Positions 44,106-64,000 of a stretch of 64,000 bases of DNA are shown piece after piece (within the stretch, counting starts at the first letter, position 1; each line of letters begins with the position of its first letter). The notes under the pieces were generated by a model, which worked only from the letters and a program-made list of their open reading frames with translations, was not told the origin of the DNA and searched no databases. Made by a program: the position numbers and the translations under genes. The stretch covers positions 310,001-374,000 of the forward strand of contig NZ_JOJE01000005.1 in assembly GCF_000720255.1 (NCBI RefSeq), read 5' to 3'. Source of the DNA: Streptomyces griseus subsp. griseus. Its GTDB lineage: Bacteria > Actinomycetota > Actinomycetes > Streptomycetales > Streptomycetaceae.

Positions 44106-45464
44106 TCAGCGGGACCCCGGTTCAAGGTCTGTGAGCAGGTCGTCCAACACCGTTTCCTCCTCGACCCGGACACCACACTCGGTGAGAGCGATGGCCAGGG
44201 CCGGGTCCCAGGGAGTCGCGGCAGGCTGGCCCGTCAATTCCGGGGCTTCGGCCACGGCGGTCACCGCTGCTCGGTAATCGACGGCCGTGTAACGCCATGG
44301 CCGCCAAGGAACGCTTCGTGCCAGTGCTGCGGCGATGCGCACACCGCCCCAGTCGAAATCGCCGTGGTAGAGAAGGTGGGCTCCCCGCATCGACAGGTCG
44401 CGCAGCAAGGTGAGCGCGGCGGCCGACGGTTGCCCCTGAACGCACACCATGGGAGGGCACACCGGGCCGAGGGTATTGGCGGCGCCGGACAGTACGGCCG
44501 GGTTTTCGCAGATGTAGACGTTGCCGGCCATCGGAACGGAGGCAACCGGTGCACGACCGGTGAGGGAGCGGAGCGTCAGCACCGCCGGCTCCCCCGCGTC
44601 GGCCATCCAGTCGAGGGCCGGCGTACCGCGCAGGTTGAGGGTGAGCACGGTCGATGACAGGTCGTCCTTGAGCAGTCCCACCGAGGCCCACGCCTCCCGC
44701 CGCCACCGCGCACCGGAGCCGTCGGGGAAGCCGGTGAGGCAACGGATTCCGGAGAGAACGAGAGTGGCGAGCGGCGTCCCCTCGTCCAGGGCATGGGCGC
44801 CCGAAAGGTTCCGTGCCGCGAACGTCGCCCGCGAGGTCGGCGGTGACGCGGGCAGCGCACGCAACGCACGCACGGCACTCTCCACCAGAGGGCCCGCAGC
44901 CTCCGGTGTACGAGCGAGGCGCCGTACGAGGCCGTCACCGCGGATCCGCTCGGCCCAGCGGGCCAGCTCCCCGTCGAGGATGCCGAGCGGGGCGTACGCC
45001 TCCTCCCAGGCCCGTTCCTCCCTGTTCCGTGTCTCGGCGTGGAGTACTACTGGGCCGGTGAGGGCGACGACGGCCGCCGCCAGTCCGTCGGGGCTGATGC
45101 CGGAGCGCCGCAGGATCTCGTCCACGGTGGCGAGGCGAATGCTCAGGGAGCCGCTGGATCGTGGTGCCCGTCCCAGCAGGCGTTCGGCGGCGCGTCGTTG
45201 GAATTCATCGGGATCGGGCAAGGTGACGGAGCCGGTGAGCGGCCGGCCGCGTGCCATACGCTGCCGCACGCGGTCCACGAACCAGACAAGGCCGGGATCG
45301 CCGAGCAGGCGTCCGAGGCGCTCGGTATCGACGTCGGTCCGGGCTTCTGCCGGTGGCGGCACGGCCGGTACCGCGTCCACGGTGGCGGCAGGCGGTGTCG
45401 TGCGTCCGGCCGCCGTGCAGCCGCCGTCGTGGTCAGGCGGGGTCGCCGAAGGGGTCACCTCCAC
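44106..45464 (-). CDS. jetD: Wadjet type II protein JetD (DUF2399, TIGR02679-like)
   Basis: A 452-residue protein, last gene of the Wadjet operon. The C-terminal Toprim-like nuclease core is seen in LLYHGDFDWGGVRIAAAL (about residues 372-389, the DFD carrying metal-binding acids), preceded by NVYICENPAVLSGAANTLG with its catalytic Glu. The N-terminal arm begins RLGRLLGDPGLVWFVDRV. JetD cuts plasmid DNA after the JetABC complex recognises small closed circles by loop extrusion. The GTG at 45464 overlaps the jetC stop by 10 bases; a GTG at 45458 is also possible. Its active-site residues look intact. Confidence 0.88.
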   Translation of the reverse strand: MEVTPSATPPDHDGGCTAAGRTTPPAATVDAVPAVPPPAEARTDVDTERLGRLLGDPGLVWFVDRVRQRMARGRPLTGSVTLPDPDEFQRRAAERLLGRAPRSSGSLSIRLATVDEILRRSGISPDGLAAAVVALTGPVVLHAETRNREERAWEEAYAPLGILDGELARWAERIRGDGLVRRLARTPEAAGPLVESAVRALRALPASPPTSRATFAARNLSGAHALDEGTPLATLVLSGIRCLTGFPDGSGARWRREAWASVGLLKDDLSSTVLTLNLRGTPALDWMADAGEPAVLTLRSLTGRAPVASVPMAGNVYICENPAVLSGAANTLGPVCPPMVCVQGQPSAAALTLLRDLSMRGAHLLYHGDFDWGGVRIAAALARSVPWRPWRYTAVDYRAAVTAVAEAPELTGQPAATPWDPALAIALTECGVRVEEETVLDDLLTDLEPGSR

Positions 45465-48400: not shown

Positions 48401-49705
48401 CGTGTCGGGGGCTCCCTCCGTCCTGGGGACGTCGAGCCGGGCGGCCGCGGCGCTCTCGACCACCCGGTCCCGAATGCTGTCCAGCGCCTCCCGGGCGGCG
48501 GTGAGCCGGTTGTCCGCGGTGGCGAGCCGGCCCAGGGCCCGGGTGTGCGCCTCGGCCGCCGTACGCCGGTCCGCCTCGGCCCGCTTCAGCTCCGCGGCCG
48601 TGCGGGAGGCGTCCTCCGCCGCCCGGTCGAGCGCACGGGCATCACGCATCTCGGGACGGGACCGAAGCGTGGCTTCCTGTGCGGCCAGCCGCGCGGCCCG
48701 CTCGTCCAGGGCGGCCCCCCTCTCCCTGGCCTCCTCGCGGTCCACCAGGGCGCGGTCCCGGTCCGCCTGTGCCCTGGCGAGTTCCCGTTGCAGGTTCTCG
48801 TACCGGGCGTGTTCGCGGCGCGGCAGGCGGGCGCGGCGCCTGGAGGCGAGGCGGGCGTAGCGCCGGTAGTGGTCGAGGAACGCCGACGACGCCTGTTCGG
48901 CCTCGCGGGCCGCCCGCAGTTCCTCCTTCTCCTCGTCCAGCGACCGGAAGGCCTCCGCCGCGTCGGCGACGACTGCCTGGTCCATCGGAGGCAGAGCCTC
49001 CGTGAGCGCCCGGGACAGGGCGGCCTCGCTGGGGCGCTTGGACAGCTGGGGCTGGCGCAGCTGGATCAGGAGGTCGACGAGAGCGCCGTAGCGCCGCTCC
49101 CCGAGCCCGAAGAGGGCTTCGTCGACCGCCCTGCGGTAGGCCTTCGCCGTGTCGTACACCATGCCGTGGCCGCCGACGGCCTCGGCGAGCCGGTCCCGGG
49201 ACAGTGCCGTCCCGGTCGCGTCCAGCAGGTCGAGGCCGGCGCCGACCCGCTGGCCGGTGACCGCGAACCAGTGGCGGGCGATGCCCCGGCCGGCGACCGC
49301 CTTGAGTCCGCACAGCAGCGTGCGGAAGTGCGCCTCGCCCGTGCTGGCGTCGAGTCGTCCGAACTCGATCCAGGTGTATCCGAGCCGCTCGGGATGCGGG
49401 TGCGCGCCGCCCAGGAGGAGGTTCCACTCCATGCGCTTGCCGGGGTCGCCGTCTGGTTCGACGCGACGGGCGGAGAGGTCGCCGTCCAGGAGGAACGGCA
49501 GGGTGAGGGCGAGCACCTTCGACTTGCCGGTGCCGTTGTTGCCGCGCAGCAGCAACCGGCCGTCGCGGAACCAGAACTCCTCGACGTCGTAGTGGAAGAG
49601 ATCGACGAGTCCGATGCGCAGGGGCCGCCACCGGCCGGGCGCGGGAGCGGGCAGCGTGGGGCCGGGCGACTCGGGTCCGGGGAGCGCGGTCACGGGGCGG
49701 TTCAC
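45455..49705 (-). CDS. jetC: Wadjet type II protein JetC (SMC-like ATPase, TIGR02680-like)
   Basis: A 1416-residue SMC/Rad50-type ATPase. Walker A is LLLRGNNGTGKSKVLAL (GNNGTGKS at 55-62). The signature motif is ASGGERVLAAS (from 1259) and Walker B is LVTLDEAFAGVDDDSR (from about 1291). Between them lies about 1000 residues of Arg/Glu/Ala-rich coiled coil interrupted by a hinge-like globular part around 600-760 (VRPDGSAVAADGHDVLLDPVG). It is the motor of the Wadjet complex. GTG at 49705 overlaps the jetB stop by 4 bases (GTGA). Very long antisense frames across this gene come from coding bias and are not real. Confidence 0.92.
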   Translation of the reverse strand: MNRPVTALPGPESPGPTLPAPAPGRWRPLRIGLVDLFHYDVEEFWFRDGRLLLRGNNGTGKSKVLALTLPFLLDGDLSARRVEPDGDPGKRMEWNLLLGGAHPHPERLGYTWIEFGRLDASTGEAHFRTLLCGLKAVAGRGIARHWFAVTGQRVGAGLDLLDATGTALSRDRLAEAVGGHGMVYDTAKAYRRAVDEALFGLGERRYGALVDLLIQLRQPQLSKRPSEAALSRALTEALPPMDQAVVADAAEAFRSLDEEKEELRAAREAEQASSAFLDHYRRYARLASRRRARLPRREHARYENLQRELARAQADRDRALVDREEARERGAALDERAARLAAQEATLRSRPEMRDARALDRAAEDASRTAAELKRAEADRRTAAEAHTRALGRLATADNRLTAAREALDSIRDRVVESAAAARLDVPRTEGAPDTVLRREADDANASRRRAVEHVAELVTRAEQAAERHRAARLRADEADEEAVHAEERLTEAEEDVAREGRALVTAVRERLSVCVELRVPGLPGVLDAVQDWASSLDGAMPARTAASEAHRAAASRLADRAAGLAQREAATAERQRLAVEELTALETGRQRGPAAPPTRTPGVRDRGPGAPLWRLVDFRPHVTGADRAGLEAALEASGLLDAWVRPDGSAVAADGHDVLLDPVGLLGGTGLDRALCPAVDPAAVGAAAVGEETVARLLASIGLAAVGDDGPGEASWEAGGHDTWVCADGRFRVGALTGSWAKDSAQYVGEGAREQARRVRIGELCAEIDNLTAEWERLAEESRAVAGRRATLDAELAALPGDDDLRHAHARVTAAAEAVRRARARRDERAAELAPAAERAERAAAELADTAAALNLPADHTALGAVLQALADHTALLAALWPALRERAEAERAVTSEQEETQRADLLVSALAERAAEAARVAAAADEHLTTLRSTVGAAVAELQRQLEETAEAARVCEHEQGQARAAHGDADRRASRAEGRIERLAEDVTEATAAREEAVAALQRFAATGLLAVALPDIDVPDDGAGRWAATPAVALARAVESRLSSIDDTDAAWERVQKRLSEEFGRLQDALSRHGHTATARPSEDGMRVDIVYQGRERAVPELAEALTVEVAELTRILSAREREILQTHLITEVAGTLQELIGAAERQVAAMNRELEERPTSTGMKLRLVWRASRRAPQGLAQARERLRQSADAWSPEDRAAVGAFLQEQIAHRQADDSAGSWLEDLTAALDYRSWHEFGVERHQHGKWVPATGPASGGERVLAASVPLFAAASSHYASADGAHAPRLVTLDEAFAGVDDDSRAKCLGLLRAFDLDVVMTSEREWACYPQVPGIAIAQLSRVDDIDAVLVTRWEWDGSERRRGTQPGARANAFAAAVGAGDSGEGADGPVSPSGEPGRTAVVDSSGGQGALWR

Positions 49706-50982
49706 CTTTCGTCCTGCACGGGCTGCACGGGTTGCGTGGGCTGCCCGGGTTGCAGGGGTTGCTCGGTCGTGGCGGACCGGCGGGCCCGTCCGGGTTCCCT
49801 GACGACGGGTTCGCCGACCGCGTACCGCGCAAGGGCCGGCCGCGGTACGACGCCTCGTGCGGTGCGCTCGACGAGTCCCAGCGCCACCAGCTTGCTCAGC
49901 GCCTGCTCGACGAGTTCGGGCTCCGCTCCCGGTTCCCTCGCCGACTTGGACCAGAACCCGCCGTGTTCCACCGCAAGTTCACGTACGCGGGCCGCCAGTT
50001 CCGCCGGTTCCACGGGCCCGGCCGCCCGGACCAGGTATCCCGCCAGCAGGAGCGTGATGTGACCGTGGGTGCCCTGTTCCGGCATGCGCACGTCCGTGAG
50101 GTCGTCCATCGGGTCGACCATGGCGATGCCCTCGGCCCGGACCTCCGGGACGAGTCCCGTCAGCTCGTTGATGCGGGCGGTGATGAAGCCGCGCTGCCGG
50201 GTGAGGTAGGCCAGTTCGTCGTCGGTCAGGTCGTCGTAGTACAGCACCGGGTCGTCCAAGAGGATGCGGGTCAGTTTCCAGCGGACGGCCCGGAACCTGA
50301 GCTCGTCGCTGTCGAGCACGGTCCACGCGGTCATCTCCACCAGGCGCTCCTCGAAGCCCTCGGCCTCGACCATGGAGGGACCCCGCAGCGACGCGGGCAT
50401 CCCGGCCAGCACGCGCCGCCGCACGTCGTACAGGACGTCGCCCGATCCGCTGACGTAGGCGTCCTCGTCGCCGGCCACCCGCCGCAGCACCCCGAGCCGC
50501 AGCAGCAGGCGGACGACGGCCGCGAGGTCGAGGCGCTCGTCGCGCCGCTCCAGGGTGAACGTGATCCCCGCGGCGACGAGTTCGGGATCCGCGGCGGCCA
50601 CGACGACCTGCTCGGCGAGGCGGCCGAGCGCCACCTGCGACTCACCCCGTTCCAGCGCGGCCAGGGCCAGGCAGAGCAGGACGTAGCGGCGGCGGGTGAA
50701 GGGCAGTGCGCTGCGGGCGGCCTCGCGCGCCGGGTGCGTGGCGTCGGTGAGGATGCCCGGCGTCTTGCGCAGCCGTGCGGCGTCGGCGTCCGTGCGCAGC
50801 GTCCAGCCGACGTTGCGTTCGAACCACTCCCGCAGCTCGGCGCTGTGCCGGCGCACCAGCTTGAACTCGTCGGCGTACGGTCCGTCGGCGGTGAGCAGCG
50901 GCTCCTTCAGCAGGGCGCGTGCGGCCTTCTGGAGGTCGGCCTGCCGCTGGCCGTCGAGGACCTCGGCGAGGGGGCCGCTCAT
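49702..50982 (-). CDS. jetB: Wadjet type II protein JetB (DUF2398, TIGR02678-like)
   Basis: A 426-residue helical/winged-helix protein of the KITE/MukE-like group of the Wadjet complex. Markers: RRHSAELREWFERNVGWTLR, RRYVLLCLALAALERGESQ, DVLYDVRRRVLAGMP, RWKLTRILLDDPVLYYDDLTDDELAYL and QRGFITARINELTG. A repetitive Gln/Pro tail (PLQPGQPTQPVQPVQ) closes the protein. ATG at 50982 follows GGAGGA and overlaps the jetA stop. It bridges the JetC heads together with JetA. Confidence 0.9.
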   Translation of the reverse strand: MSGPLAEVLDGQRQADLQKAARALLKEPLLTADGPYADEFKLVRRHSAELREWFERNVGWTLRTDADAARLRKTPGILTDATHPAREAARSALPFTRRRYVLLCLALAALERGESQVALGRLAEQVVVAAADPELVAAGITFTLERRDERLDLAAVVRLLLRLGVLRRVAGDEDAYVSGSGDVLYDVRRRVLAGMPASLRGPSMVEAEGFEERLVEMTAWTVLDSDELRFRAVRWKLTRILLDDPVLYYDDLTDDELAYLTRQRGFITARINELTGLVPEVRAEGIAMVDPMDDLTDVRMPEQGTHGHITLLLAGYLVRAAGPVEPAELAARVRELAVEHGGFWSKSAREPGAEPELVEQALSKLVALGLVERTARGVVPRPALARYAVGEPVVREPGRARRSATTEQPLQPGQPTQPVQPVQDER

Positions 50983-52583
50983 CGGTCCTCCGTGAGCTGG
51001 GGAGCGGTGTCCCGTCGCGGGGCGGGGAGGGGAACCAGTGCCGGCGCGGCGCGGTCGTCGTGCCCCGCCGTGAGGTCGACGATGTCGATCAGGTGGTCGG
51101 GACCGCTGAACACACCATCGGGAGTGCGCACTTCGGCTGTCGATCCGTCGTTGAGGGCGGTCAGCCGGATCTCCATCGAACCGTCCCCGCTGGTGGCGAC
51201 GGTGGTGATGGTGCCCGGCCGCCAGGTGGCGAGCGCGTCGCCGAGCAGCCGCAGGAATAGCTGGAAGGCATGCGGGTCGAGTCCGCCGAGCCGGGACAGC
51301 CGCACCGGTCCGTCCGTCACGAGGCAGTCCCGGGCCCGCCTGGTCTCCTCCGTCTGCCGGGCGGCGATCTCGGCGAGCCGACGCTTGGCCTCGCCCCGGT
51401 CGGCCACCCGGCGCGGCTTGCCCCGCCGTTCGTAGCTGCCGGTGCGGCGCAACTGGGGGCTGATCCTCAGCGGTCGCGCCTCGCTCCACGGGGTGGAGGC
51501 CGGCTCCGGGGTGGCCGTCCGTTCGGCGAGGGTGTCGGCGTCGACGGTGAGGTGCCGGGAGGAGTGCAGCCCGAAGGCCACCCGCCACAGCCGGTGCCGC
51601 GCCTCGTCGTCCGGCGCCTGGGCGAACCACCGCGCCAGGGTGCGGAAGTCGGCTGAGCGGTCCGAGCGTCCGGCCCGCCGCTCGTTGAGCTGCCGTACGA
51701 CGGCCAGGAGCTGCGGGATTGCGCCGAGTGCCCGCCCGCGCAACAGTCTGGCCTGCGACTCCCGCCCCTCCCCCGACACGAACCACTCGGCGAGCCCGGA
51801 CCACCGGGCGGCCCACCGCTCGTACGCCACCGCCTCCGCCCGCCCGGCGTCCTCGGGAGCGGCGTCGGCGGCCTCACGAGCGGCGGCGAGCCGCAGCAGC
51901 GGACCGACCCGCTCCTGCTCCTCCAGTTCCCCGATCAGCAGGGCGATGCGCCCGCCGAGCGTGATGAGGTCCTGGATGAAGCGCTCCAGGTACTGGATCA
52001 GCCGGTCCTTGTAGGCGAGGAACGCCTCGACCTCGATGTCGTGCAGGTCGATGGTGCGCTGGAGCGAGCCCATGAAGGCGCGGGCGTTGTCGGCGAGGTC
52101 GGTGAACCGCGCCGTCAGCACGGACAGGGCGACGTACGTCTTGGCCGCGTCGGGCTCGTCCTCCGCGGCGATCACCAGCAGCGCCCGCAGCTGCGTGACG
52201 ATGTCGTGCAGCGCGACCGCCTGGAGTTCGCCGCGCCGTCCCAGCACTTCGTCATACGTCCCCAGCGCCGCCTCGGCCGCCTCACCGGCCCGGGTGAGCT
52301 GGTAGATGAACCGCCTGCGGTAGAAGTCCTCGACCGCCGTCACCCGCGCGTGGTCCGGATCGGCCCGAAGGTTGCCCCACTCCACGAGCTTGTCCAGCGC
52401 CTGCGTCACCGCTTCGAGGTCGGCGGGCCGACTCCCCACGTCCAGGACTGCGTACACGTCCTCCGGCCGCAGATGCACCGCGAACCGCTCCTTGGCGCCG
52501 AGGAAGGCCCGCATGACCTGGCGGTAGAGGGGGGCGTTGGGGGCGGTGAGGTGGGCGAACGGAGAGTAGTCGCTGGAGGTCAT
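50979..52583 (-). CDS. jetA: Wadjet type II protein JetA (DUF2397, TIGR02677-like)
   Basis: A 534-residue kleisin-like subunit, first gene of the Wadjet operon. It shows FAHLTAPNAPLYRQVMRAFL near the N-terminus, LVEWGNLRADPDHARVTAVEDF, then RRRFIYQLTRAGEAAE and RTIDLHDIEVEAFLAYKDRLIQYLERFI, all typical of DUF2397. The C-terminal third (WRPGTITTVATSGDGSMEIRL) is the winged-helix end that binds the ATPase head. The start is uncertain: ATG at 52583 matches the domain, while GTG at 52601 is also open. It lies 31 bp after a HATPase gene on the same strand, so transcription may begin upstream of that gene. Confidence 0.9.
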   Translation of the reverse strand: MTSSDYSPFAHLTAPNAPLYRQVMRAFLGAKERFAVHLRPEDVYAVLDVGSRPADLEAVTQALDKLVEWGNLRADPDHARVTAVEDFYRRRFIYQLTRAGEAAEAALGTYDEVLGRRGELQAVALHDIVTQLRALLVIAAEDEPDAAKTYVALSVLTARFTDLADNARAFMGSLQRTIDLHDIEVEAFLAYKDRLIQYLERFIQDLITLGGRIALLIGELEEQERVGPLLRLAAAREAADAAPEDAGRAEAVAYERWAARWSGLAEWFVSGEGRESQARLLRGRALGAIPQLLAVVRQLNERRAGRSDRSADFRTLARWFAQAPDDEARHRLWRVAFGLHSSRHLTVDADTLAERTATPEPASTPWSEARPLRISPQLRRTGSYERRGKPRRVADRGEAKRRLAEIAARQTEETRRARDCLVTDGPVRLSRLGGLDPHAFQLFLRLLGDALATWRPGTITTVATSGDGSMEIRLTALNDGSTAEVRTPDGVFSGPDHLIDIVDLTAGHDDRAAPALVPLPAPRRDTAPQLTEDR

Positions 52584-54374: not shown

Positions 54375-56714
54375 CTACCTGGGCAGGTACGGGCTCGGCT
54401 TGCCGTACCAGCTGATCCGCAAGGTGTCGCGGGCGCGGGTGGCCGCGACGAACAGCACTGACCGGGCCTTCAGTTCCTCACGGGCGAGGCGCCGGGGGTC
54501 CGTGTCGCGGTAACGCTGGACGACGGACGCGCGGGGGATGACGCCGTCGCGGGCACCGACGATGGCGAGCCTCTGGTATTCGAGGCCCTTGAAGCGGTGC
54601 ATGGTTCCGACGTGGATGTCGCCGTCTCCCTTGACACCCTCCTTGGTGAGTTCGGCGACGGTCAGCTCGGCCTCGGTCGCCAGGTAGTACATGACCTGGT
54701 TGACGGCCTCACGGTCGGCGACGCACACCGCGATGTTGCCGCGGGGGTCGCGGACCTTGCCGTCGGCTCCGCCGGTGGCGAGTTCCTGGCGCCAGGCCCG
54801 CAGGGTGGTGGCGAGCTGGGCGAGTTCGTCGTCCCAGCTCTCGCAGCGGACGAGTTCGGGGGCCGGACCGCGCAGAACCGAGCGGTAGCCGTCGAGGGTG
54901 TCGGTGCCGTCGTCGAGGTCGTCGAAGGTGATCTGGTCGCTCTTGGGGTTCACCACCTCCATGGCCCGGTTCAGGATCTCGCGGGTGGTGCGGTAGCTGA
55001 GGGTCAGGCGGGCCGCACGACCGCGGATGTTGACGCCGACCGTGCCCAGGGTGACCTGCTGATCGTAGATGCGCTGGTGGGTGTCGCCGGCGATGAACAT
55101 GTCGTCCTCGCCCGGCGCGACCATGGCGCGGAGCATCTTCCAGTGGGCGGGCCTGAGGTCCTGTGCCTCGTCCACGACGACATGCTTGTACCGGTGGCTC
55201 AGGTAGTACATGCCGGAGCTGTCGTCGCGGTGGATGAGGTCCTTGCCGCCGATCTCGTCCTTGTACTCCTGGCGTTGCTCGATCTTGGCGGCGCGCTGCA
55301 TCTCGAAGCGGGCGGCGCGCTCGGCGGCCTGGCCCCAGGTCTCGCGGCCTTCCTTGTCGAGGCGGGTGGTGAACTGCTCCAGGATCTTCCAGATCTGCGC
55401 CCGGTCGGGCCGGCTGACGGACCGCCCCCGTCCGGCTCGCCGCGCGTCGAAGTACGCCTTGCGGGTGCCCAGGGACTGACCGAGGATCACCTGCTCCCAC
55501 TCCTCGTAGAGGAATTCGGCGTCCCAGCGTTTCTCGTCGAGTTCGACGAGGACCTGGCGGAGGGTGTTCAGGGCGACGCTGTCGTAGATGCGCTGCTTCC
55601 CGGCGCCGGCGACGGTGTTCTCGTTGAGGACGCGGGCGGCGAGCTGGTCGATGTGCGTGATGTCGACGCGGGCCAGCTGCTCGGGTTCGAGCAGGGACGC
55701 CAGGCGGGCCCGCAGGTCGGTGGTGAGGTTCTTGGTGAAGGTGGTGAGCAGAATCGGCTTGTTGTGCCCGGGGGGCAGCTGTTCGGCGAGGTGCTTGACG
55801 CGGTGCAGGGCGACGATGGTCTTGCCGGTGCCCGGGCCGCCGGACACCCTGAACGGACCGCTGCAACGGCGGCCCACGAGCTTGGCCTGGGCGGGGTGGA
55901 GGAAGACCTTCCAGGCGCGGAAGTCGCCCTCTTCGATGATGTCCTTGAGAGCGTCGTCGATGGTGGTGACCGTGGTGCGGGCGAGCGCCGCGTCCAGGTC
56001 GTTCCGCTGCGATTCGTCGAGTTCGACGTCGACGGGAGCGGTGATCTCCTTGCGCACGTCCGCGATGGACAGGCCGGCGGCGAGGCCGTACAGGATGTCC
56101 TTGGTGAGGAGGGGGGCACCGGAGACGAGAGCGTCGAGTTCGGTGCTCTCGGTGACCGCGAGGGCGAGGTCTATGAGCTGTTCGGCGACGCCGAGGTCAC
56201 GGAGGTCTTCGGCGGTGACGCTGGCGAGGAGCGGCTCGGCCTGGGGAACGGCGGTCGAGGTGTCCGCGTGTTCGGCGGTGGCCGGTACGGGGGCGGGCGT
56301 CTCCGGCTCGTCCAAGGCTTCCGGCTGCTCGGCCGGGGTGAGCGTCATCCCGGCCCGCTGCAGAACGCTCTGACCCACTACGGAGAGGTCGACGAATTCG
56401 ATCTCTCCGGTGATGCGGTTGATCGCGACGGAGAGTTCTTCGTAGACGTGCTTGCGATGCCGGACGGCGACGACCAGCCACTTCTCGCGGCCGGCGCCGT
56501 CGACGCCGATCTTGGCGAGGAGCGCGCGGTAGGACTGGTCGACCTTGGCGCGGTAGACGCGGCCGTCGCCCTTGAGCGGCTTGAGGTCGAGACCGGGGTG
56601 GTCGGGATTCTGCCGGAAGCGGTGGCAGAAGTCGTAGAACTTGCCCTTGACCGAGCGGTCGAGCTTGTACAGCTCCTGTTCGGCCTTCTCGTACAGGCTG
56701 AGCCGTGCGGTCAT
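54375..56714 (-). CDS. UvrD/Rep-type helicase with N-terminal RelE-like domain
   Basis: A 779-residue protein. Residues 1 to about 95 look like a RelE/ParE-fold toxin domain: SLYEKAEQELYKLDRSVKGK, HPGLDLKPLKGDGRVYRAKVD, SYRALLAKI and WLVVAVRHRKHVYEEL. A linker of about 190 residues follows, then a superfamily 1A helicase core: Walker A VSGGPGTGKTIVALH (292-299), Walker B VVVDEAQDLRPAHW (515-519), RLTLSYRTTREILNRA, and motifs V-VI VGTMHRFKGLEYQRL and VAATRARDTL. The ATG overlaps the stop of the giant helicase gene (ATGA). The toxin-like Arg and His residues (RHRKH) are kept, so the domain may cut or bind RNA on the ribosome, or simply be a structural module. Confidence 0.85.
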   Translation of the reverse strand: MTARLSLYEKAEQELYKLDRSVKGKFYDFCHRFRQNPDHPGLDLKPLKGDGRVYRAKVDQSYRALLAKIGVDGAGREKWLVVAVRHRKHVYEELSVAINRITGEIEFVDLSVVGQSVLQRAGMTLTPAEQPEALDEPETPAPVPATAEHADTSTAVPQAEPLLASVTAEDLRDLGVAEQLIDLALAVTESTELDALVSGAPLLTKDILYGLAAGLSIADVRKEITAPVDVELDESQRNDLDAALARTTVTTIDDALKDIIEEGDFRAWKVFLHPAQAKLVGRRCSGPFRVSGGPGTGKTIVALHRVKHLAEQLPPGHNKPILLTTFTKNLTTDLRARLASLLEPEQLARVDITHIDQLAARVLNENTVAGAGKQRIYDSVALNTLRQVLVELDEKRWDAEFLYEEWEQVILGQSLGTRKAYFDARRAGRGRSVSRPDRAQIWKILEQFTTRLDKEGRETWGQAAERAARFEMQRAAKIEQRQEYKDEIGGKDLIHRDDSSGMYYLSHRYKHVVVDEAQDLRPAHWKMLRAMVAPGEDDMFIAGDTHQRIYDQQVTLGTVGVNIRGRAARLTLSYRTTREILNRAMEVVNPKSDQITFDDLDDGTDTLDGYRSVLRGPAPELVRCESWDDELAQLATTLRAWRQELATGGADGKVRDPRGNIAVCVADREAVNQVMYYLATEAELTVAELTKEGVKGDGDIHVGTMHRFKGLEYQRLAIVGARDGVIPRASVVQRYRDTDPRRLAREELKARSVLFVAATRARDTLRISWYGKPSPYLPR

Positions 56715-59700
56715 CGGTGGGTGGCGCCTTCCGTGTCCGGGAGCAGGGTGAGCAGGGTGTCGAGGTGGTCGAGCCAGTCGGGTGCCGTGCGCACGGTCCA
56801 GCCGTCGCCGGTGTAGGCGTCGTCCCGCTTCTGGCGTTCCTCGCTGTCGTGGGCGTCGGAGTCGACGAACACCGCCACCTTGGTGGCGCCGGGCCAGGCG
56901 AAGTCGGCCTGCCAGCCGCGGTCGCCGAGCTCGTAGCCGAAGACCGGGGCTGCCTTCCCCCGCGCGGCGAGTGCCTTGGCCAGCCGTGTGAGGTCGGAGT
57001 CGGGCTCGTCCTCTTCGAGGAGTTCGAGGATGTCCTCGTCCCAGGCCGCGTCCCGGAGCAGTCCCTCGACCGCCTGCTCCAGCGAGGAGGAGGTCGAGGA
57101 CCGGTCCGTCGTCGTCGGCTCTGTGACGTCGGCGGGAGCCGTGGCACCGGGGGCTGCCGTCTCCGGGTGCAGCCGCGCGATGAGCGTCTCCAGCTCCCCC
57201 GGGCCGCCTCCGACCCGCAGCGCCTCCACGGCGAAGTCGGCGGCCATGCTGCCGGCGAGTTGCACGCCGTCGCCGCCGGTGAAGGCCAGGAACTGGAGGA
57301 GGTTGGACCAGTAGAGCCAGGAGCGCCACCGGAGTCTGTGCGCGGGGGTGCCGAGTTCGTCGTCGTTCTGGTCGTCGAGTACGGCGAGGGCGCCCCAGCC
57401 GACCCCGGCGGTGCCGTCCGGTCCGCCGGACGGGTCGACCGTGTAGAGCAGCGGCAGGCCGTGTTCGTCAGTGGCGGACAGGACGAGGATCTCGCCGTTC
57501 CCGGCGACGGGTTCGACGTCGGCGACCGGGTTCCCGCTCTTCGCCAGGGAGCCCAGGGCGCTGCGCAGGGTCGCGCGGGCCTGCGCGGGGTCGACGTTCT
57601 GGGCCAGCGGTTCGGGCGCGCTGAGGAGTCCGCCGACCAGCGCCTGGGCCCGCCGCCCCCAGCGGGCCCGGGAGGGGTCGCGGAGGTAGCCGAGGAGCGT
57701 GTCGACGGGGTTGGTGAAGACGGCGTCGGCGAGGTCGGCGCGGTCGCCGCCCAGTTCCTCGTACCAGTCCTTGGCGGTGTCCTGGCCGGTGCGCCGGTAG
57801 GGCGGCCATACGGGGCGGGCCTTGGCGCGTTCGCCCTTCTCGAAGAGTTCGAGGTCGTCCCAGGTGACCTGGAAGACGAGGGCTCCACCTGCGCGCAGCT
57901 CGTCCCGCTTCCTGCAGTCGGAGGCGATCCGGTTGTGCGCGCGGGTCGCGTGGAAGCGGTGACCGTCGAGGAAGACGTGCACCTTCTGGGGTGCGCCGTC
58001 GGTCCGCTCGAAGGTGAAGTCGGTCCGGGTGAACTCCTCGTCGCGCTGGGCGGTCATGCGCCAGGCCGCGGTCCCCGCGAACCGCAGGAGGCCGCTGTGC
58101 GCGCCGCTCTCCTCCAGAGCGGCGTCGTCCTGACCGGTGCTCCAGGTGCGCAGGGCGGCGAGGAAGCGGGCCTCCAGGTCGGACTCGACCTGCCGGTCCA
58201 GGCCGATCGCCGCGGTCGTCGGAATCTCCTTGGTGGCCCAGTGGCTGACCGGGTTTCCCTCGTCGTCGGTGAGCGGACGGCCGTCCTCGTCGACGGGACC
58301 GAGGAGACTGTTGATGATCTCCAGCGCGTCCTTGCGCGACACGGCGTCCTGGTGCCGCTCCTCCGCGTGCCGGTGCAGGCAGCGGTGGCAGGCGCGCCGT
58401 CCCTCTTCCTTGCAGGGGCATGCGATCAGCATCCGCCGCGCTTCGGCGAGCGTGTCGCGGAAGGCGTCGGGCTTCTTGAGCCGGTCCAGGTAGCCGGTGC
58501 CTCCGGGCAGCCGGTCGTACAGGACGAGGAAGTGCCGCCTCTCACCGGTCGACGCGTCGGGCATCGTGGCGAGGGTGGTGTCCAGGTGGACGGGGTCGCC
58601 GCCGAAGTGCCGGTCGACGCCCAGCCGTAGGGCGGCCCGGAACGAGTGGACCTTCTCGTCGACGAGGACGGTCGCGGCCGGGAGCAGGATGCGCAGGGCC
58701 TCGGTGGTGAGCTGGTGGGCGAGGAGCACCGGTTCCTGCTTCGGCGCGTCCGGCCCCCTCTTGCCCCGGCGCAGCGGGCACCAGGGCTGGTGGTGCTTGA
58801 CGGCGGGGTTGCGTACGGCGGAGGTGTCGAGCGCGTCGGTGTCGTGGTCGAAGACGGGCTTGCCGTCGGCGCTCGCCGCCCCGCAGGCGGTGCAGACGTA
58901 GAAGGGTGCCAACCGGACGTCGTGTCCGGCCAGTTCCTCCTCGGCGCGGGCGTCGAACCGCATCGGGCCGACGTTGATCCTCCGGATGACCGCCTTGCGG
59001 GAGTAGTCGACGCCGAAGGTCTCGCGGGAGTGCCGCCAGGACGCTTTGGCCTGGATGTGCTCCGTCGGGAAGTCGACCGCGTCGACGACGGTGTAGAAGC
59101 GCTGCTCGCGGTCGTCCTTGTCGTCTCCGATACGGGCGTCGTCGCGCTTGTCGCGCGACGTGACCACGGTCGGTTCGATCACGTGGTGGAGGCAGGAGCC
59201 GTCGTCGGCGATGCCGGTGCTGTGGCAGCGCGGGCACGGACTGCGGTCCTCGGCGGCGTTCTCGGTACGGACGTAGCCGCACTCGCGGCAGAAGCGCCAG
59301 GGCGTCCAGTCGGGCCGGGTGGAGCTGCCGATCTCGATGCCGGTGATCTGGTGCTTGTAGCCGTTGACGTAGAACGTGTTGCCGGGCGCGAGTTCGGACA
59401 GGGCGTAGCGCTGGGGCCGCTCGTACGGGCGCACCTTGGAGTCGAAGCGTTCCCGCCCGGTCTTCGGGTCGGGGCCGTCGAACCAGTAGAGGGTGGCGTT
59501 GAGCGTGGTGACGGCGTCGAGGAGGGCGTAGTTCGGCAGCAGGCCGAGGTCGCAGAGGGCCTGCTGGGCGGTCACGTTGCCGCGCTTCATCAGGCGTCGG
59601 CCGACAGCCCGGTGCTCCGCCTCCAGTTCGGCCTTGCGCACGCGCTGCTCGTCGTCGTCCTCGTGCAGTTCGCGGACGGCCTCGTCGATGAAGGTGAGCC

Positions 59701-62700
59701 TGCGCCGCAGTTCCTCCTCCCCGCGCTTCCACTGCCGAGCGGCCTCCTCGACGGCGCCGCGCAGCTCGCGCCGGGCGTAGGCGCGCAGTTCGTCGGCGGC
59801 CTGGGGGCTGACGCCGGTGGGGAAGAGGCCGAGGAAGGCCTCCACGTGCTCGGCGGCACCGGCCAGGGCGGCCTCCACGAGGTCTTCGAGGTATCCGGTG
59901 GGGCCGAAGAGGGCGGGCGCTTCCCGGGGGATCGCGGCGAGCGTCCGCCCGTCGGCGCGCTTCAGCCTGCCCTGCGCGGCGAGGTCGAGGAGGTGGGCGA
60001 GGTACTGGCGGCGCAGGATCTCGATGGCCGACAGGTAGCTACCCGGCGGCACGATCTGCCCGGCGATCATCTCCCGGGGCTGGTCGAGGTAGTACAGGTC
60101 CCGGCGGCTGCGGTCGGGGATGGTGAGGAGGAAGGCGTTGCCGGTACGTCGTCCCGCGCGGCCCACCTGCTGGACGTAGTTGGCGGCGCGGCGGGGCAGC
60201 GCGGCGAGCACGACGGCCGACAGGTCGCCGATGTCGATGCCCATCTCCAGGGTGGGCGTGCAGGACAGCACGTTGGGGTCCTTGAACCCGCTGCCGTCCC
60301 GGAACGCCGCCTCGACCCGCTCGCGTTCCGGGCGGGTGAGCATGCCGGTGTGCTCGGCGGTGATCACCTGGTAGGTGCCCGCCTTGCGGTACAGCCTGCG
60401 GTAGTAGTCCTCGCGGTGGTCCCGGTCGCGCTGGTGCCGGCCGAGCCCTTCCGGCCGGGTTCCGGCGACGAGACGGCCGGTGCGGCAGCGGTAGGCGGGG
60501 CATTTCTGGCCGTCCCACTGGCCGAGCAGGGACGGGTGGACGGTCTGTTCCCAGAAGCAGGACGGGCAGCGCACGAACGCCTCGTTGACCTCGGCGTCCT
60601 TCAGGAGCTGGACGTCGACGGCGCCCGGCTTGAGCCCGTAGATCCGCAAGCTGCTGTCCTCGGGAGTGCGGGCGGCGAGCAGTCCGGCGGCGACGAGTTC
60701 GGGCAGCAGCCGCGACCAGAACTCGGCGGCCTGCTCACGGGGCAGGCCGAGGCTGCGCTGGGCCCACCGCTCGTACCAGGAGAGGCGTCCGGTGGCGAAG
60801 TCGAATTCGCTCCTCGACTTCGGCGCGCTCAGCAGGAAGACGGGCGCGGCGATGCCTTTGGGGAAGGCCCTCATGCCGACGGGCCGCTTGCCCCAGATGA
60901 AGTAGCGGCTGGTTCCGGCTTCCTTCAGGTAGCCGTCCAGCCAGCGGTGGCCGATGGCGCCGCGGGTCCGCAGCCGCTCCAGGAAGATCCGCAGGAACCC
61001 GAGGTAGCGGTCGTCGTCCAGTGCGTCGGGGACGGGCAGTTGGCCGCCCTTGCCGTACGGCGCGGTGTGCGCGGCCCGGACGATGTCGACGGCGGCCGTC
61101 GGGTCGGCTATGCGGACCTGGGCGGCGGCGGTGCGGGTGAGTTCGAGGGTGCGGCCGTTGCGGGAGCGGAACCCGAACTCCATCAGCGCCTCGAACGCGA
61201 ACCGCTCTCCGATCAGCTGCCAGGTCTTGTAGTCCCCTCCCCGGCCCTGACCGGAGAGGAGCTTCTTGACGCCCTTGATGTCGTGCAGGTCGGTGGGGAC
61301 GACGGCGGCGAGCGTCGTGCGGTCAGTGGTCGCGGCGACCACGTCGGCGATCAGGTCGTTCAGCGCGGTCGGGGCGTCCTCGGAGAGGTGGCTCTTGAAC
61401 AGGGCGCGCAGGGAGAACGTGTACGACCGGCTGGCGACGAAGCCGGCGCGGTGCGCGGCGTCCTGCACCGAGTCGTTGAACATCAGGGTCTTCGTCTCGC
61501 CCTGCTTGTCGTCCAGTTCCCCGCCCGTGAACAGCTGGGTGACGGAGGCGGCGGCGAGCGCGGCGGCGCCGGTACCGAGGAAGCGGATCGTGTTGCGCGA
61601 GCCGCACGCCGGACACCAGTCCTCCTCGGCGGCGGTGGTCGCGGTCTCCCCCAGGTAGACGAGGACGAACGCCGAGTCGGCGCCGGCGAGCCGGGGGCTG
61701 CCGGTCTCCGGTTCGTAGTCGGCGACCGGGTCGGGCAGCCGCAGCCTGCGCTTCGGCCCGTCCAGGACGCGGAGCTGACCCGCTCCGGCCACACTGAGCG
61801 CGTTGGCGTCGGCACGCCCGGCTGCGCGGCCCGCGCCCTCCATGGGCGCGGTTCCGGAACCTTCCCGTGCCTCGCCGTCGGTGGCGGCGATGAGATTGCG
61901 CACCCGCATCTTGTCCTGGCTGACCGAGGCCCGCCGGACCTTGTGCGTGTCGACCTCGACGTCCAGGTCGTCGGACTCCGGCGTGAAGACCGCCCACCCG
62001 GAACGTCCGCAGTCACGGCAGTACACGGCGGGCAGGAAGAGGTTCGCCGACTGCCCCTCGGTGGCTGTGGTGACGGGCGCGGTGCGCGCCGCCGCCTCCT
62101 CGGAGGTCTCGGGCGCGCCAGCCGTGTCCCACTGGAACTCGGCCTTGGGCCAGGGCAGCACGCCCCGCACGAGACGGGACACCGACCGGGCCCACTGGTG
62201 AACCTCGACCTGCACGAAGGGACGCGGCTCCTCGGTCGTCGACCCCGGGTGACGGGCCACCGAGAGCAGCGCGACGAAGCGGGCGAGCGCCTTCGCCGCC
62301 ACCTCGGGGCGCAGGGTGATGGTGCGGCCCCACGCCTGGGCACCGCGGCGCCACATCAGGTCGAGTACCTCGGGCATGGAACGCACCTGCCCGTCGAGGG
62401 CGTGCAGCACGGCGGCGGTCAGCGGATGCCGCATCAGCACCCGGCCGAGCGCGAACGGATCGGTGTCGCGGCTCCCGGTGACGACCTCGGCGAGAGCGGC
62501 GAACTCCTCCTCGCCGAGCGTGGGGTCGGGCAGGGCCGCCAGCTCGTCGGGGGTCGGCACGGGCAGGATCGGATCGAAGTCGTCGCTGGGCACGAACTCG
62601 TCCACGGTCAGGCGCTGTTCGCCGACGATGGCATCGGCGGTGAACTCGGTGCCGAACACCTGGGTCGCCACGTCGAGCAACTGCCGCGCTCCGTCGGCGT

Positions 62701-63529
62701 CCGTCCCGGAGGCGAGGGTCGCGGACGTGGCGACCGGGCAGATACGGCCGAGCGGACGCCCCGTCTCCGAGGCCCCGACTGCGGAGGCGAGCCGGCGCAG
62801 GAGCATCGCCACGTCGGTGCCCTGCGCACCGTCGTAGGTGTGGAACTCGTCAACGACGACGTACCGGATGTCGGACCCCGCCCACATCGCGGCGTCGTCG
62901 GCACGCTGGAGCAGCAGGTCCAGCATCTTGTAGTTGGTGATCAGGATGTCCGGCGGCGTGACCTGCATGTCGTACCGGTCGGTGTACACGTGGCTGTACC
63001 GGGTCGCTGCGCGCTCACCGATGTAGAGCCCTGCCCGGACCCTGTTCAGCTCCGGGTGGTCGATGAGAAGCCCGTTGATGCGCTGCGCCTGGTCGGTGGC
63101 GAGGGCGTTCATGGGGTACAGGAACACGGCCTTGACACCGGCGTGGCCGGCCGCCCTCTCGCGGGCGCAGTGGTCGAGTACCGGGTAGAGGAAGGACTCC
63201 GTCTTACCGGATCCGGTACCAGTGGTGACGAGGGTCGGCCGGGGGGTCCGCCCGCCTGCGGACGACAGCCGATCGAAGGCCACGGCCTGGTGGGCGTACG
63301 GCGTCCAGCCGTCCGTGCGTCGCCAGTCGAGGTACGTCTCCCACGACGGGTCCGCCGGGACGAAGGGCGTGCGCAGGCGGAGGAACGGCCCCCTGAACAT
63401 GCCGGAGTTGTCGTCCCCGAGGAACCTGTGCAGCGCCTTCCGTGCACCCTCGTCGGTCAGCGCGTAGGTAGTGGAGAGGTACTGAAGCAGGCTCTCCTTC
63501 AACCCCTCCGCTTCGAGCGTCGGCCTCAC
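56711..63529 (-). CDS. Giant DEAD/DEAH helicase with DUF1998 and tandem nuclease-like C-terminus
   Basis: A 2272-residue protein. The helicase core has Walker A VTTGTGSGKTESF (103-110) and a DEAH-like VVVDEFHTYDGAQG (227-230), with motif VI QQVGRAGRRTGNAF near 1120. Zinc-ribbon pairs (CRDCG, CPACG, CRECG...CPRCH, CTACG) are spread through the middle. A DUF1998/MrfA-like module has LYDRLPGGTGYLDRL and CPCKEEGRRACHRCL near 1710. Two Vsr/DUF559-like segments follow: VHVFLDGHRFHA near 1853 and VAVFVDSDAHD near 2220. GTG at 63529 overlaps the upstream stop and has AGGAGG 10 nt before it. Length and layout resemble DrmA/DrmB-type and other phage-defence helicases, but I do not recognise the exact family. 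Confidence 0.85.
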   Translation of the reverse strand: MRPTLEAEGLKESLLQYLSTTYALTDEGARKALHRFLGDDNSGMFRGPFLRLRTPFVPADPSWETYLDWRRTDGWTPYAHQAVAFDRLSSAGGRTPRPTLVTTGTGSGKTESFLYPVLDHCARERAAGHAGVKAVFLYPMNALATDQAQRINGLLIDHPELNRVRAGLYIGERAATRYSHVYTDRYDMQVTPPDILITNYKMLDLLLQRADDAAMWAGSDIRYVVVDEFHTYDGAQGTDVAMLLRRLASAVGASETGRPLGRICPVATSATLASGTDADGARQLLDVATQVFGTEFTADAIVGEQRLTVDEFVPSDDFDPILPVPTPDELAALPDPTLGEEEFAALAEVVTGSRDTDPFALGRVLMRHPLTAAVLHALDGQVRSMPEVLDLMWRRGAQAWGRTITLRPEVAAKALARFVALLSVARHPGSTTEEPRPFVQVEVHQWARSVSRLVRGVLPWPKAEFQWDTAGAPETSEEAAARTAPVTTATEGQSANLFLPAVYCRDCGRSGWAVFTPESDDLDVEVDTHKVRRASVSQDKMRVRNLIAATDGEAREGSGTAPMEGAGRAAGRADANALSVAGAGQLRVLDGPKRRLRLPDPVADYEPETGSPRLAGADSAFVLVYLGETATTAAEEDWCPACGSRNTIRFLGTGAAALAAASVTQLFTGGELDDKQGETKTLMFNDSVQDAAHRAGFVASRSYTFSLRALFKSHLSEDAPTALNDLIADVVAATTDRTTLAAVVPTDLHDIKGVKKLLSGQGRGGDYKTWQLIGERFAFEALMEFGFRSRNGRTLELTRTAAAQVRIADPTAAVDIVRAAHTAPYGKGGQLPVPDALDDDRYLGFLRIFLERLRTRGAIGHRWLDGYLKEAGTSRYFIWGKRPVGMRAFPKGIAAPVFLLSAPKSRSEFDFATGRLSWYERWAQRSLGLPREQAAEFWSRLLPELVAAGLLAARTPEDSSLRIYGLKPGAVDVQLLKDAEVNEAFVRCPSCFWEQTVHPSLLGQWDGQKCPAYRCRTGRLVAGTRPEGLGRHQRDRDHREDYYRRLYRKAGTYQVITAEHTGMLTRPERERVEAAFRDGSGFKDPNVLSCTPTLEMGIDIGDLSAVVLAALPRRAANYVQQVGRAGRRTGNAFLLTIPDRSRRDLYYLDQPREMIAGQIVPPGSYLSAIEILRRQYLAHLLDLAAQGRLKRADGRTLAAIPREAPALFGPTGYLEDLVEAALAGAAEHVEAFLGLFPTGVSPQAADELRAYARRELRGAVEEAARQWKRGEEELRRRLTFIDEAVRELHEDDDEQRVRKAELEAEHRAVGRRLMKRGNVTAQQALCDLGLLPNYALLDAVTTLNATLYWFDGPDPKTGRERFDSKVRPYERPQRYALSELAPGNTFYVNGYKHQITGIEIGSSTRPDWTPWRFCRECGYVRTENAAEDRSPCPRCHSTGIADDGSCLHHVIEPTVVTSRDKRDDARIGDDKDDREQRFYTVVDAVDFPTEHIQAKASWRHSRETFGVDYSRKAVIRRINVGPMRFDARAEEELAGHDVRLAPFYVCTACGAASADGKPVFDHDTDALDTSAVRNPAVKHHQPWCPLRRGKRGPDAPKQEPVLLAHQLTTEALRILLPAATVLVDEKVHSFRAALRLGVDRHFGGDPVHLDTTLATMPDASTGERRHFLVLYDRLPGGTGYLDRLKKPDAFRDTLAEARRMLIACPCKEEGRRACHRCLHRHAEERHQDAVSRKDALEIINSLLGPVDEDGRPLTDDEGNPVSHWATKEIPTTAAIGLDRQVESDLEARFLAALRTWSTGQDDAALEESGAHSGLLRFAGTAAWRMTAQRDEEFTRTDFTFERTDGAPQKVHVFLDGHRFHATRAHNRIASDCRKRDELRAGGALVFQVTWDDLELFEKGERAKARPVWPPYRRTGQDTAKDWYEELGGDRADLADAVFTNPVDTLLGYLRDPSRARWGRRAQALVGGLLSAPEPLAQNVDPAQARATLRSALGSLAKSGNPVADVEPVAGNGEILVLSATDEHGLPLLYTVDPSGGPDGTAGVGWGALAVLDDQNDDELGTPAHRLRWRSWLYWSNLLQFLAFTGGDGVQLAGSMAADFAVEALRVGGGPGELETLIARLHPETAAPGATAPADVTEPTTTDRSSTSSSLEQAVEGLLRDAAWDEDILELLEEDEPDSDLTRLAKALAARGKAAPVFGYELGDRGWQADFAWPGATKVAVFVDSDAHDSEERQKRDDAYTGDGWTVRTAPDWLDHLDTLLTLLPDTEGATHR

Positions 63530-64000
63530 CGCTTCGGCACCTCCTGCTTGACCGGGTCCCACTCGCCTGCGGCCACGGCGTCATCCAGCCGCTTCTGGAA
63601 GTAGGCGTGAGCTTCGCGCATTTCGGTCTCGCGGTTGGCTTTGTAGAAGGGGGCGGTGTAGCCGTCGGGGGTGGGGGTTTGGGGGGCGGGGTTGTTCTCC
63701 GGGTCGGCCTGGTGGGCTTTGAAGGCGGGGTCGGCCATGTAGGCCTCGAACTGCTTCCAGGTTTCCTTGGTCTGGCGCTGGCCGATAGTGCGGGCGTAGC
63801 TGGCCAGCTTCCAGCCTTCGGCATCGAACCAGCTTGCGGCCTCGTATTTCTGGAGGACGGGGAAACGGCCTCGGTAGGCGGCGATCAAGGCGTCGGCATC
63901 CATGCCGAGCCAGACGGCCACCAAGGCGTCGATCTCGACGAGGGCAGCACGGCGGGCATACTCGGTGCGGAGAGGGGTGTCGCGCTGCCAGGTCGGGGTC
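63526..64000 (-). CDS. C-terminal part of a probable Eco57I/PglX-like methylase
   Basis: An open frame of 157 codons that enters from beyond the window edge; its start is missing. The visible part reads RRAALVEIDALVAVWLG, ADALIAAYRGRFPVLQKYEAASWFDA, GQRQTKETWKQFEAYM and DGYTAPFYKANRETEMREAH, ending DPVKQEVPKR. This resembles the C-termini of Streptomyces Eco57I-type restriction-modification methylases found beside DUF1998 helicases. The catalytic NPPY motif would lie outside the window, so the assignment is unproven. Its stop overlaps the giant helicase start (GTGA), placing it at or near the head of the operon. Confidence 0.5.
   Translation of the reverse strand, partial: TPTWQRDTPLRTEYARRAALVEIDALVAVWLGMDADALIAAYRGRFPVLQKYEAASWFDAEGWKLASYARTIGQRQTKETWKQFEAYMADPAFKAHQADPENNPAPQTPTPDGYTAPFYKANRETEMREAHAYFQKRLDDAVAAGEWDPVKQEVPKR

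Follow-up and report, generated by a model that had tools for sequence, protein, structure and literature searches.

RESULTS AND DISCUSSION

A kinase and four arm genes at the edge of the window

The DNA analyzed here, referred to below as the window, is a stretch of 64,000 nt from contig NZ_JOJE01000005.1 of Streptomyces griseus subsp. griseus (G000:C5:310001-374000), and the subject of this report is the defense operon that begins near its end and continues beyond it. The initial annotation described three genes at this place, the tail of a probable methylase, a 2,272-residue helicase with DUF1998 and nuclease-like domains, and a UvrD helicase with a toxin-like N terminus, all joined by 4-base stop-start overlaps. 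Both overlaps are present (Table 1), and Pfam recognizes DEAD, Helicase_C, and MZB domains in the large helicase. Extension past the window edge completed the first gene, which does encode a methyltransferase. The coupled defense operon thus stands but its extent does not, since a SNF2/BrxHII-like helicase gene and, in this lineage, a linked Ser/Thr kinase gene precede the trio. All genes of the operon are on the minus strand in the order kinase-armA-armB-armC-armD, and the system reaches approximately 10 kb past the window edge. We consider it likely that this operon represents an actinobacterial branch of ARMADA Type II in which the system has its own Ser/Thr kinase as a switch.

Table 1. 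Features of the S. griseus ARMADA locus. Positions are those of the window; positions above 64000 continue its numbering along the same contig. aa, amino acids.
Feature	Position	Strand	Basis or remark
armD, RelE-UvrD (GajB-like) helicase, 779 aa	54375..56714 (ATG at 56714, stop 54375)	-	Open reading frame, Pfam, alignment with E. coli ArmD
RelE-like domain, ArmD aa 1-96	56427..56714	-	AlphaFold2 model and PDB fold matches
UvrD helicase core of ArmD, Walker A K298, Walker B D515	54405..55892	-	PF00580 6.8e-27, PF13361 1.1e-10, residue mapping
armC, giant YprA/DruE-like helicase-nuclease, 2,272 aa	56711..63529 (GTG start 63529, stop 56711)	-	PADLOC DruE3 2.4e-89, alignment with E. coli ArmC
DEAD helicase domain, ArmC aa 80-273, Walker A K109, D227	62711..63292	-	PF00270 1.1e-17, residue mapping
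MZB (= DUF1998) zinc domain, ArmC aa 1631-1718	58376..58639	-	PF09369 7.3e-11
Putative Vsr-like PD-(D/E)XK nuclease module 1, ArmC aa 1783-1950	57680..58183	-	Conservation of motif residues
Putative second Vsr-like module, ArmC aa 2177-2267, motif residues not conserved	56729..57001	-	
armB 3' end, Type IIG/PglX-like methyltransferase	63526..64000 (stop 63526)	-	Gene runs on to G000:C5:379159
armB, complete, 1,877 aa	63526-69159 (continued)	-	PADLOC REase_MTase_IIG E 1.4e-249, NPPW motif
armA, SNF2 helicase, 1,084 aa	69156-72410 (continued) = G000:C5:379156-382410	-	DrmD/BrxHII profiles
Ser/Thr kinase, 428 aa	72508-73794 (continued) = G000:C5:382508-383794	-	97 bases 5' of armA
ATGA overlap armC/armD	56711..56714	-	
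GTGA overlap armB/armC	63526..63529	-	
ATGA overlap armA/armB	69156-69159 (continued, outside the window)	-	

The core of the locus is ARMADA Type II

The four Arm proteins were aligned pairwise with those of the ARMADA II locus of Escherichia coli KCTC 2571, which we take to be the same strain as the ATCC 8739 used in the ARMADA preprint. ArmA was 34% identical over 892 alignment columns (E = 3.2e-140), ArmC 29.6% over 1,956 columns (E = 0.0), and ArmD 29% over 797 columns (E = 2.6e-90), while ArmB aligned in two blocks of 36% (E = 4.7e-115) and 31% (E = 1.8e-79) identity with its GxG and NPPW motifs in register. Identity to the E. coli proteins is only 29 to 36%; all eight residues mutated in the preprint are identical here (K136 and D236 of ArmA, G605 and N971 of ArmB, K110 and D234 of ArmC, and K266 and D454 of ArmD, in E. 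coli numbering). The locus also has the features by which the type is recognized, namely, a BrxHII/RapA-like ArmA, a PglX-like ArmB, a YprA-like ArmC with DUF1998 in one chain, and a terminal RelE-UvrD ArmD, in strict A-B-C-D order on one strand. Because all four proteins, the gene order, and the eight residues are shared with E. coli ARMADA II, the locus is, by sequence, ARMADA Type II in an actinobacterial form. The trio of the initial annotation corresponds to the end of armB, armC, and armD.

The four-gene core is already known. ARMADA Type II (armABCD) was named and shown to be protective in E. coli by Bell et al. (bioRxiv, September 2025; PMC12458937), who describe a GajB-like helicase fused to RelE that follows a YprA-like helicase. 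The system of E. coli NCTC 12900 protected against 13 of 80 phages and required all four genes; it stopped phages nonabortively, without host shutdown or cell death, and most of the tested mutations in its ATPase and methylase motifs abolished protection, with two reducing it (PMC12458937). The available text of that preprint names no trigger for ARMADA. The initial annotation had found no named system that combined two helicases with a RelE module, and it had listed a match to a named system among the grounds for giving up its proposal; this view is now outdated, as the trio matches ARMADA Type II (PMC12458937), and for the trio those grounds therefore exist. The four genes and their order, with RelE-UvrD last, are shared with NCTC 12900 and ATCC 8739. 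The loci differ upstream of armA, where the 4.2 kb in view of the E. coli KCTC 2571 locus contain a DEAD/DEAH helicase gene alone and no kinase match, whereas the S. griseus locus has the kinase.

The resemblance to DISARM and Pgl/BREX pointed out in the initial annotation was borne out by profile searches, in which ArmA and ArmB matched DrmD and DrmMI and ArmB appeared as a PglX-like methyltransferase. The best PADLOC matches of ArmC were DruE profiles, and Druantia belongs to the same helicase branch (PMC12458937). These matches would also fit a diverged member of DISARM class 1 or Druantia, a reading that we regard as extremely unlikely. The curated cutoffs were missed (DrmD, 273 bits against 610; DrmA, 17.8 against 999), and neither a separate DrmB or DrmC nor any Druantia partner was among the matches listed for the scanned proteins, whereas all four genes and their order match E. 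coli ARMADA II. DISARM class 1 (drmD-drmMI-drmA-drmB-drmC) shares the SNF2 helicase and PglX-like methyltransferase together with a YprA-family helicase, and ArmA and ArmB are relatives of DrmD and DrmMI. In place of separate drmA and drmB genes, however, this locus has one gene in which helicase and DUF1998 are fused to a putative Vsr-like nuclease; a DrmC of the phospholipase D (PLD) type was not among the matches listed, and RelE-UvrD is added. DruE of Druantia III has PLD-type nuclease domains (PMC12458937), in contrast to the putative Vsr-type nuclease of ArmC.

Composites of DISARM and ARMADA do occur. The operon at L148:358-23117 encodes a GajB-like UvrD protein, DrmA (1e-238), DrmB (1.9e-67), a shared pair of SNF2 helicase and methyltransferase, ArmC, and ArmD, and the annotation of a Tsukamurella plasmid (L241) follows the same composite order. 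A DrmB-like match was present somewhere in the stretch in six of the named loci (the best 80 of 558, defined below).

The ArmC nuclease end and the RelE domain of ArmD

The nuclease-like domain that had been ascribed to the large helicase lies at its C terminus and is supported by residue conservation. Across 28 aligned sequences (the window ArmC and 27 relatives), D1837, G1856, H1860, and D1892 of module 1 are invariant and position 1855 is D or E. The 513-aa end of ArmC had no PDB match at an E value of 0.001 or better, and VIA-align gave middling Z scores. A Vsr-like C terminus with an extra degenerate copy, as predicted here, has been reported for many Type II proteins (PMC12458937).

The toxin-like N terminus of ArmD had no Pfam match at an E value of 0.1. 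An AlphaFold2 model of residues 1 to 96 (predicted local distance difference test score, 78.7) had RelE/YoeB toxins as its top PDB matches (2khe; E = 6.7e-06; template modeling score, 0.77 by target length), and the model thus assigns the domain a RelE fold, in agreement with the initial annotation. The domain is weakly conserved in sequence, F29 and G103 being the sole invariant residues in 24 rows. RelE-family toxins are ribosome-dependent mRNA endonucleases. It could accordingly be proposed that this domain is a killing arm which, once ArmC or ArmA has been overwhelmed, cleaves mRNA and shuts down the cell as an abortive backup, with the kinase as its trigger. The predicted fold and the activity typical of the family speak for such a role; with so poorly conserved a RelE sequence, and with E. 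coli ARMADA II stopping phages while the host neither shuts down nor dies (PMC12458937), we consider it very unlikely.

A loss of the RelE part was at one point read from ArmD matches that start at residues 135 to 158, and was rejected when tblastn recovered this part in L111 and L112. In L113 (G380:C1:132460-134310), an ArmD-like protein stands beside an ArmC fragment, its match starts only at residues 135 to 140, and the RelE part may have disappeared or changed beyond recognition there.

Conservation of the gene set

The initial annotation had proposed co-occurrence of the trio across genomes as a check, and the genes do stay together. ArmD was searched for in 297 genomes of the host family (E value of 1e-60 or better) and was present in 52 of them; the surroundings were fetched for 40 of 54 places, and in 37 of these 40 loci a full-length ArmC adjoins ArmD. 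A second ArmD search gave 36 places, with surroundings fetched for 19. The relatives within the family form two main groups by identity, a closer group (63 to 79%) and a second group (51 to 56%). armA-B-C-D is contiguous in 15 of the 21 fetched loci of the closer group, and in the second group other genes intervene between armB and armC wherever armB is in view. A further set, referred to here as the named loci, comprises the best 80 of 558 confirmed loci found through ArmB; because of this selection and because the query set was headed by a Tsukamurella protein, it is not a random sample, and it may overlap the other genome sets. In 50 named loci the ArmC match ends before base 22,500 of the stretch; ArmD lies no more than 1.5 kb from ArmC in 46 of them, and three of the other four are cut off by a contig or stretch end. 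ArmD matches at an E value of 1e-20 were found in 42 plasmid records, and phage records yielded one weak partial ArmC match at 1e-10 or better.

In some relatives the armB-armC junction holds whole defense systems, Nantosuelta NsnA-B-C in one (L070:5846-9301) and HEC-01A/B in another (L069:4933-6794), and it looks like a recurrent insertion point. The S. griseus genome contains a second, partial ArmD-like stretch (G000:C35:74310-75179; 55% over residues 330 to 625) that may be left over from another ARMADA copy. An ArmC with at least 95% identity to that of the plasmid in L076 was present in 518 of 5,426 E. coli genomes, and 15 of 525 such places were plasmid borne.

A Ser/Thr kinase linked to armA

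The kinase gene immediately precedes armA and shares its strand in all 15 fetched upstream stretches of the closer group and in four of five from the second group, the fifth having none of these genes; three further second-group loci have kinase, armA, and armB in a row. Of 42 plasmid records, 11 were examined. Two Streptomyces plasmids among them carry the five-gene cassette kinase-armA-armB-armC-armD between differing flanking genes, three were cut at the upstream end, and six had no kinase match. At the level of the class, the kinase was present in 8 of 10 loci with a complete armA and its upstream region in view. It was found in 25 of the 73 assessable named loci, a count that excludes L185, where there is only a fragment of ArmA. 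These 25 include all loci from Streptomycetaceae (13/13), Glycomycetaceae (2/2), Nocardiopsidaceae (2/2), and Thermomonosporaceae (1/1), five of six from Micromonosporaceae, one of five from Pseudonocardiaceae, and one unplaced actinomycete; all other loci that lack it come from other families. Searches by tblastn with five kinase queries (E value of 1e-3) detected no kinase in the ARMADA stretches of E. coli, Tsukamurella, Pseudanabaena, Haematobacter, Gemmobacter, Nostoc, and Cylindrospermopsis. Two Rhodobacterales plasmids (L229:1452-2737 and L233:587-1870) have genes for WGR and WYL domains upstream of armA, the place that the kinase occupies in the actinobacterial branch.

In phylogenies of ArmA and of the kinase, this linkage follows a single lineage. 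In an ArmA tree of 86 rows (FastTree, midpoint rooted, with Pseudanabaena as a long branch; rows that were too short or had ArmA coverage of 80% or less were left out), all 34 kinase-bearing loci fell on one side of one branch with a support of 99, which requires one change. Presence of the kinase spans six actinobacterial families and tracks the ArmA lineage rather than the host family, as the counts for Micromonosporaceae and Pseudonocardiaceae illustrate. The linked kinases were also compared with other kinases of the S. griseus genome. Besides the kinase of the locus, this genome gave 32 kinase matches, of which the top one is 44% identical (180 bits), and 24 of the 32 were used as paralogues after matches weaker than 1e-20, one with an internal stop, and one 69-aa fragment were left out. 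A single branch with a support of 100 separated these from 30 linked kinases (that of this locus and 29 others, the 25 from the named loci being excluded), and it remained when the Nocardia kinases described below were added. The linked kinases of the closer group matched the S. griseus kinase with 353 to 481 bits.

The linked kinases also share features of sequence and distribution. The catalytic residues K, D, N, and D are kept in all 55, and a C-terminal tail (defined as [LIVMA]RxxY[ADG] within the last 30 residues) was present in 48 of 54, with a variant in 4, neither form in 2, and no occurrence among the 24 paralogues. A search for the kinase alone in 200 genomes of the family (E value of 1e-60) gave 32 matched places, 3 with a stop codon inside the match, in 31 genomes. 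ArmD was present in 29 of these 31, compared with 52 of 297 overall, a comparison that assumes that the same genomes are in both searches. Of the two exceptions, G142 has a borderline kinase match of 207 bits in a 670-aa frame, and G100 is described below.

Does the kinase belong to the system?

A number of observations weigh against a kinase that works as part of ARMADA. This kinase is absent from 48 of the 73 assessable named loci and the E. coli system defends without one, so the kinase is not part of the core. Its gene and armA do not overlap, being 97 bases apart here, and a profile scan recognized no sensor domain in the protein. Linked kinases from the second group and from other families scored 182 to 275 bits, near the best paralogues (approximately 170 to 174 in the same search), so that their assignment depends on gene position, tree placement, and tail. 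The pattern that defines the tail was itself picked after the sequences had been viewed, and 2 of the 25 kinases from named loci have neither of its forms. In G100 (L234; G100:C1:5051500-5071400), the kinase lies directly upstream of armA and is followed by a different UvrD-like gene (27% identity, matching ArmD from residue 268 only), with no armB or armC in the approximately 40 kb downstream; this locus is a decayed or alternative system. Finally, seven Nocardia loci have a kinase of an unrelated clade upstream of armA, on the opposite strand and without the tail (L164:6102-6914, L178:6139-6912, and also L165, L166, L174, L177, and L193; 108 to 129 bits). They lie 235 to 6,268 bases from armA, two of them at approximately 235, and were counted as lacking the kinase. 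Kinases can therefore adjoin armA outside the clade described here, and those of Nocardia are possibly a second, independent kinase association.

Several of these points, namely, the nonoverlapping genes, the Nocardia kinases, and the kinase-free defense of E. coli (PMC12458937), would equally be expected of a plain ARMADA II locus with a hitchhiking neighbor, for example, a one-gene defense kinase or general regulator, that has its own job and leaves the Arm proteins untouched. Kinase genes are plentiful, as the 32 other matches in this genome show, and related kinases act as defense genes alone (matches to PADLOC PD-T4-6 and mad6). A hitchhiker does not readily explain why the kinase is confined to one ArmA clade, through one change, across six families and in step with ArmA rather than with the host, nor its near-exclusive co-occurrence with ArmD, the common tail that paralogues lack, or the five-gene cassette on two plasmids with different flanks. 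We therefore think this explanation rather unlikely. The evidence in hand suggests that the kinase-bearing branch is a kinase-controlled variant of ARMADA II, in which the role of the kinase is deduced from linkage and descent.

In the working that we infer for this variant, ArmB would methylate host DNA as a self mark, as the initial annotation had surmised when it suggested self/nonself discrimination by methylation; going by the sequences, this is a reasonable guess. ArmA, a SNF2/RapA-like translocase, and ArmC, a YprA-type helicase with a putative C-terminal Vsr-type nuclease, would engage and cut unmarked or replicating phage DNA, and ArmD, with its UvrD motor and RelE domain, may be a further required effector or processing arm. 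DruE of the related Druantia III loads on single-stranded DNA regions and cleaves long DNA (PMC13192584). Upon infection, the kinase would phosphorylate a member of the complex, and its short C-terminal tail may serve as a docking motif. ArmA is the likeliest partner because the two genes are adjacent and the presence of the kinase follows the history of ArmA.

A fuller version of this scheme is put forward tentatively, with a chance that we would place somewhat below even. The branch would then be a distinct actinobacterial ARMADA II subtype whose soluble Ser/Thr kinase was gained once and has since descended together with ArmA in several families; this kinase would sense infection and, by way of the docking tail, phosphorylate and so license the ArmA-ArmB-ArmC-ArmD complex, in parallel to PglW and PglX of Pgl. 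The kinase activity of PglW is required for Pgl defense in Streptomyces coelicolor and has been proposed to activate PglX by phosphorylation (PMC4365076).

As far as we have seen, a kinase-bearing ARMADA II subtype is undescribed. The terms "kinase," "STK," and "phosphoryl" are absent from the main text of PMC12458937, whose supplementary tables may list a kinase, and our literature searches turned up no description, those tables possibly excepted, of a kinase linked to ARMADA or DISARM in Streptomyces. The switching of ARMADA-type systems could be approached directly in a lineage that keeps a kinase next to ArmA. Such a lineage also ties together two traditions of Streptomyces research, Pgl and DISARM/ARMADA, since both pair a kinase with a PglX-like methyltransferase, and the census presented here supplies named strains and plasmids for testing.

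Other defense systems that include a kinase

Pgl (BREX type 2) likewise combines a Ser/Thr kinase with a PglX-like methyltransferase in Streptomyces phage defense, and the kinase activity is essential there (PMC4365076). PglW, however, is a multidomain protein of 1,400 to 1,600 residues (PMC12839542), whereas the ARMADA kinase is a lone kinase of approximately 430 aa with a short tail. Neither PglZ nor BrxC/PglY was among the matches listed for the proteins scanned (those from armB to the Tiamat-like gene, four Wadjet proteins, and six others). McrBC-type GTPase systems also have a Ser/Thr kinase in a defense operon, and some of their extended neighborhoods include a YprA helicase (PMC11090510). 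Their kinase is fused to a zinc ribbon, and such genes are not present at this locus. MADS is a further multigene system with a methyltransferase and a kinase, and its mad6 profile matches the ARMADA kinase, but the NCBIfam matches are far below cutoff (MAD2, 17.8 of 720 bits; MAD6, 110.7 of 460 bits).

Neighboring defense genes

The initial annotation had placed the trio in the same island as a complete Wadjet system, and PADLOC assigns the genes in question (JetD2, JetC2, JetB2, and JetA2; window positions 44106-52571, minus strand) to Wadjet II with JetA to JetD all present. It is a separate system approximately 1.8 kb from armD. On the other side, going upstream from the kinase gene, the next genes encode a CBS protein, then a protein with DUF262, and then a Tiamat-like protein. 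Among the 15 upstream stretches of the closer group, a CBS match was present in one (L090) and DUF262 and Tiamat matches in none, so these genes, which had been considered as parts of the system, are regarded as neighbors. The Tiamat-like TmtA (1,801 aa; G000:C5:386986-392391) matched PADLOC PDLC03971 with an E value of 0 in a scan of its N-terminal part. The DUF262 (GmrSD_N) gene overlaps that of the CBS protein (G000:C5:383911-386912), and the two gave an NCBIfam match to DS11_antiphage of 215.8 bits, under the cutoff of 260. The CBS protein ends in an RNxxxH motif like that of HEPN RNases. Near ARMADA in L056 lies a relative (29%) that has a RAMA domain at its N terminus.

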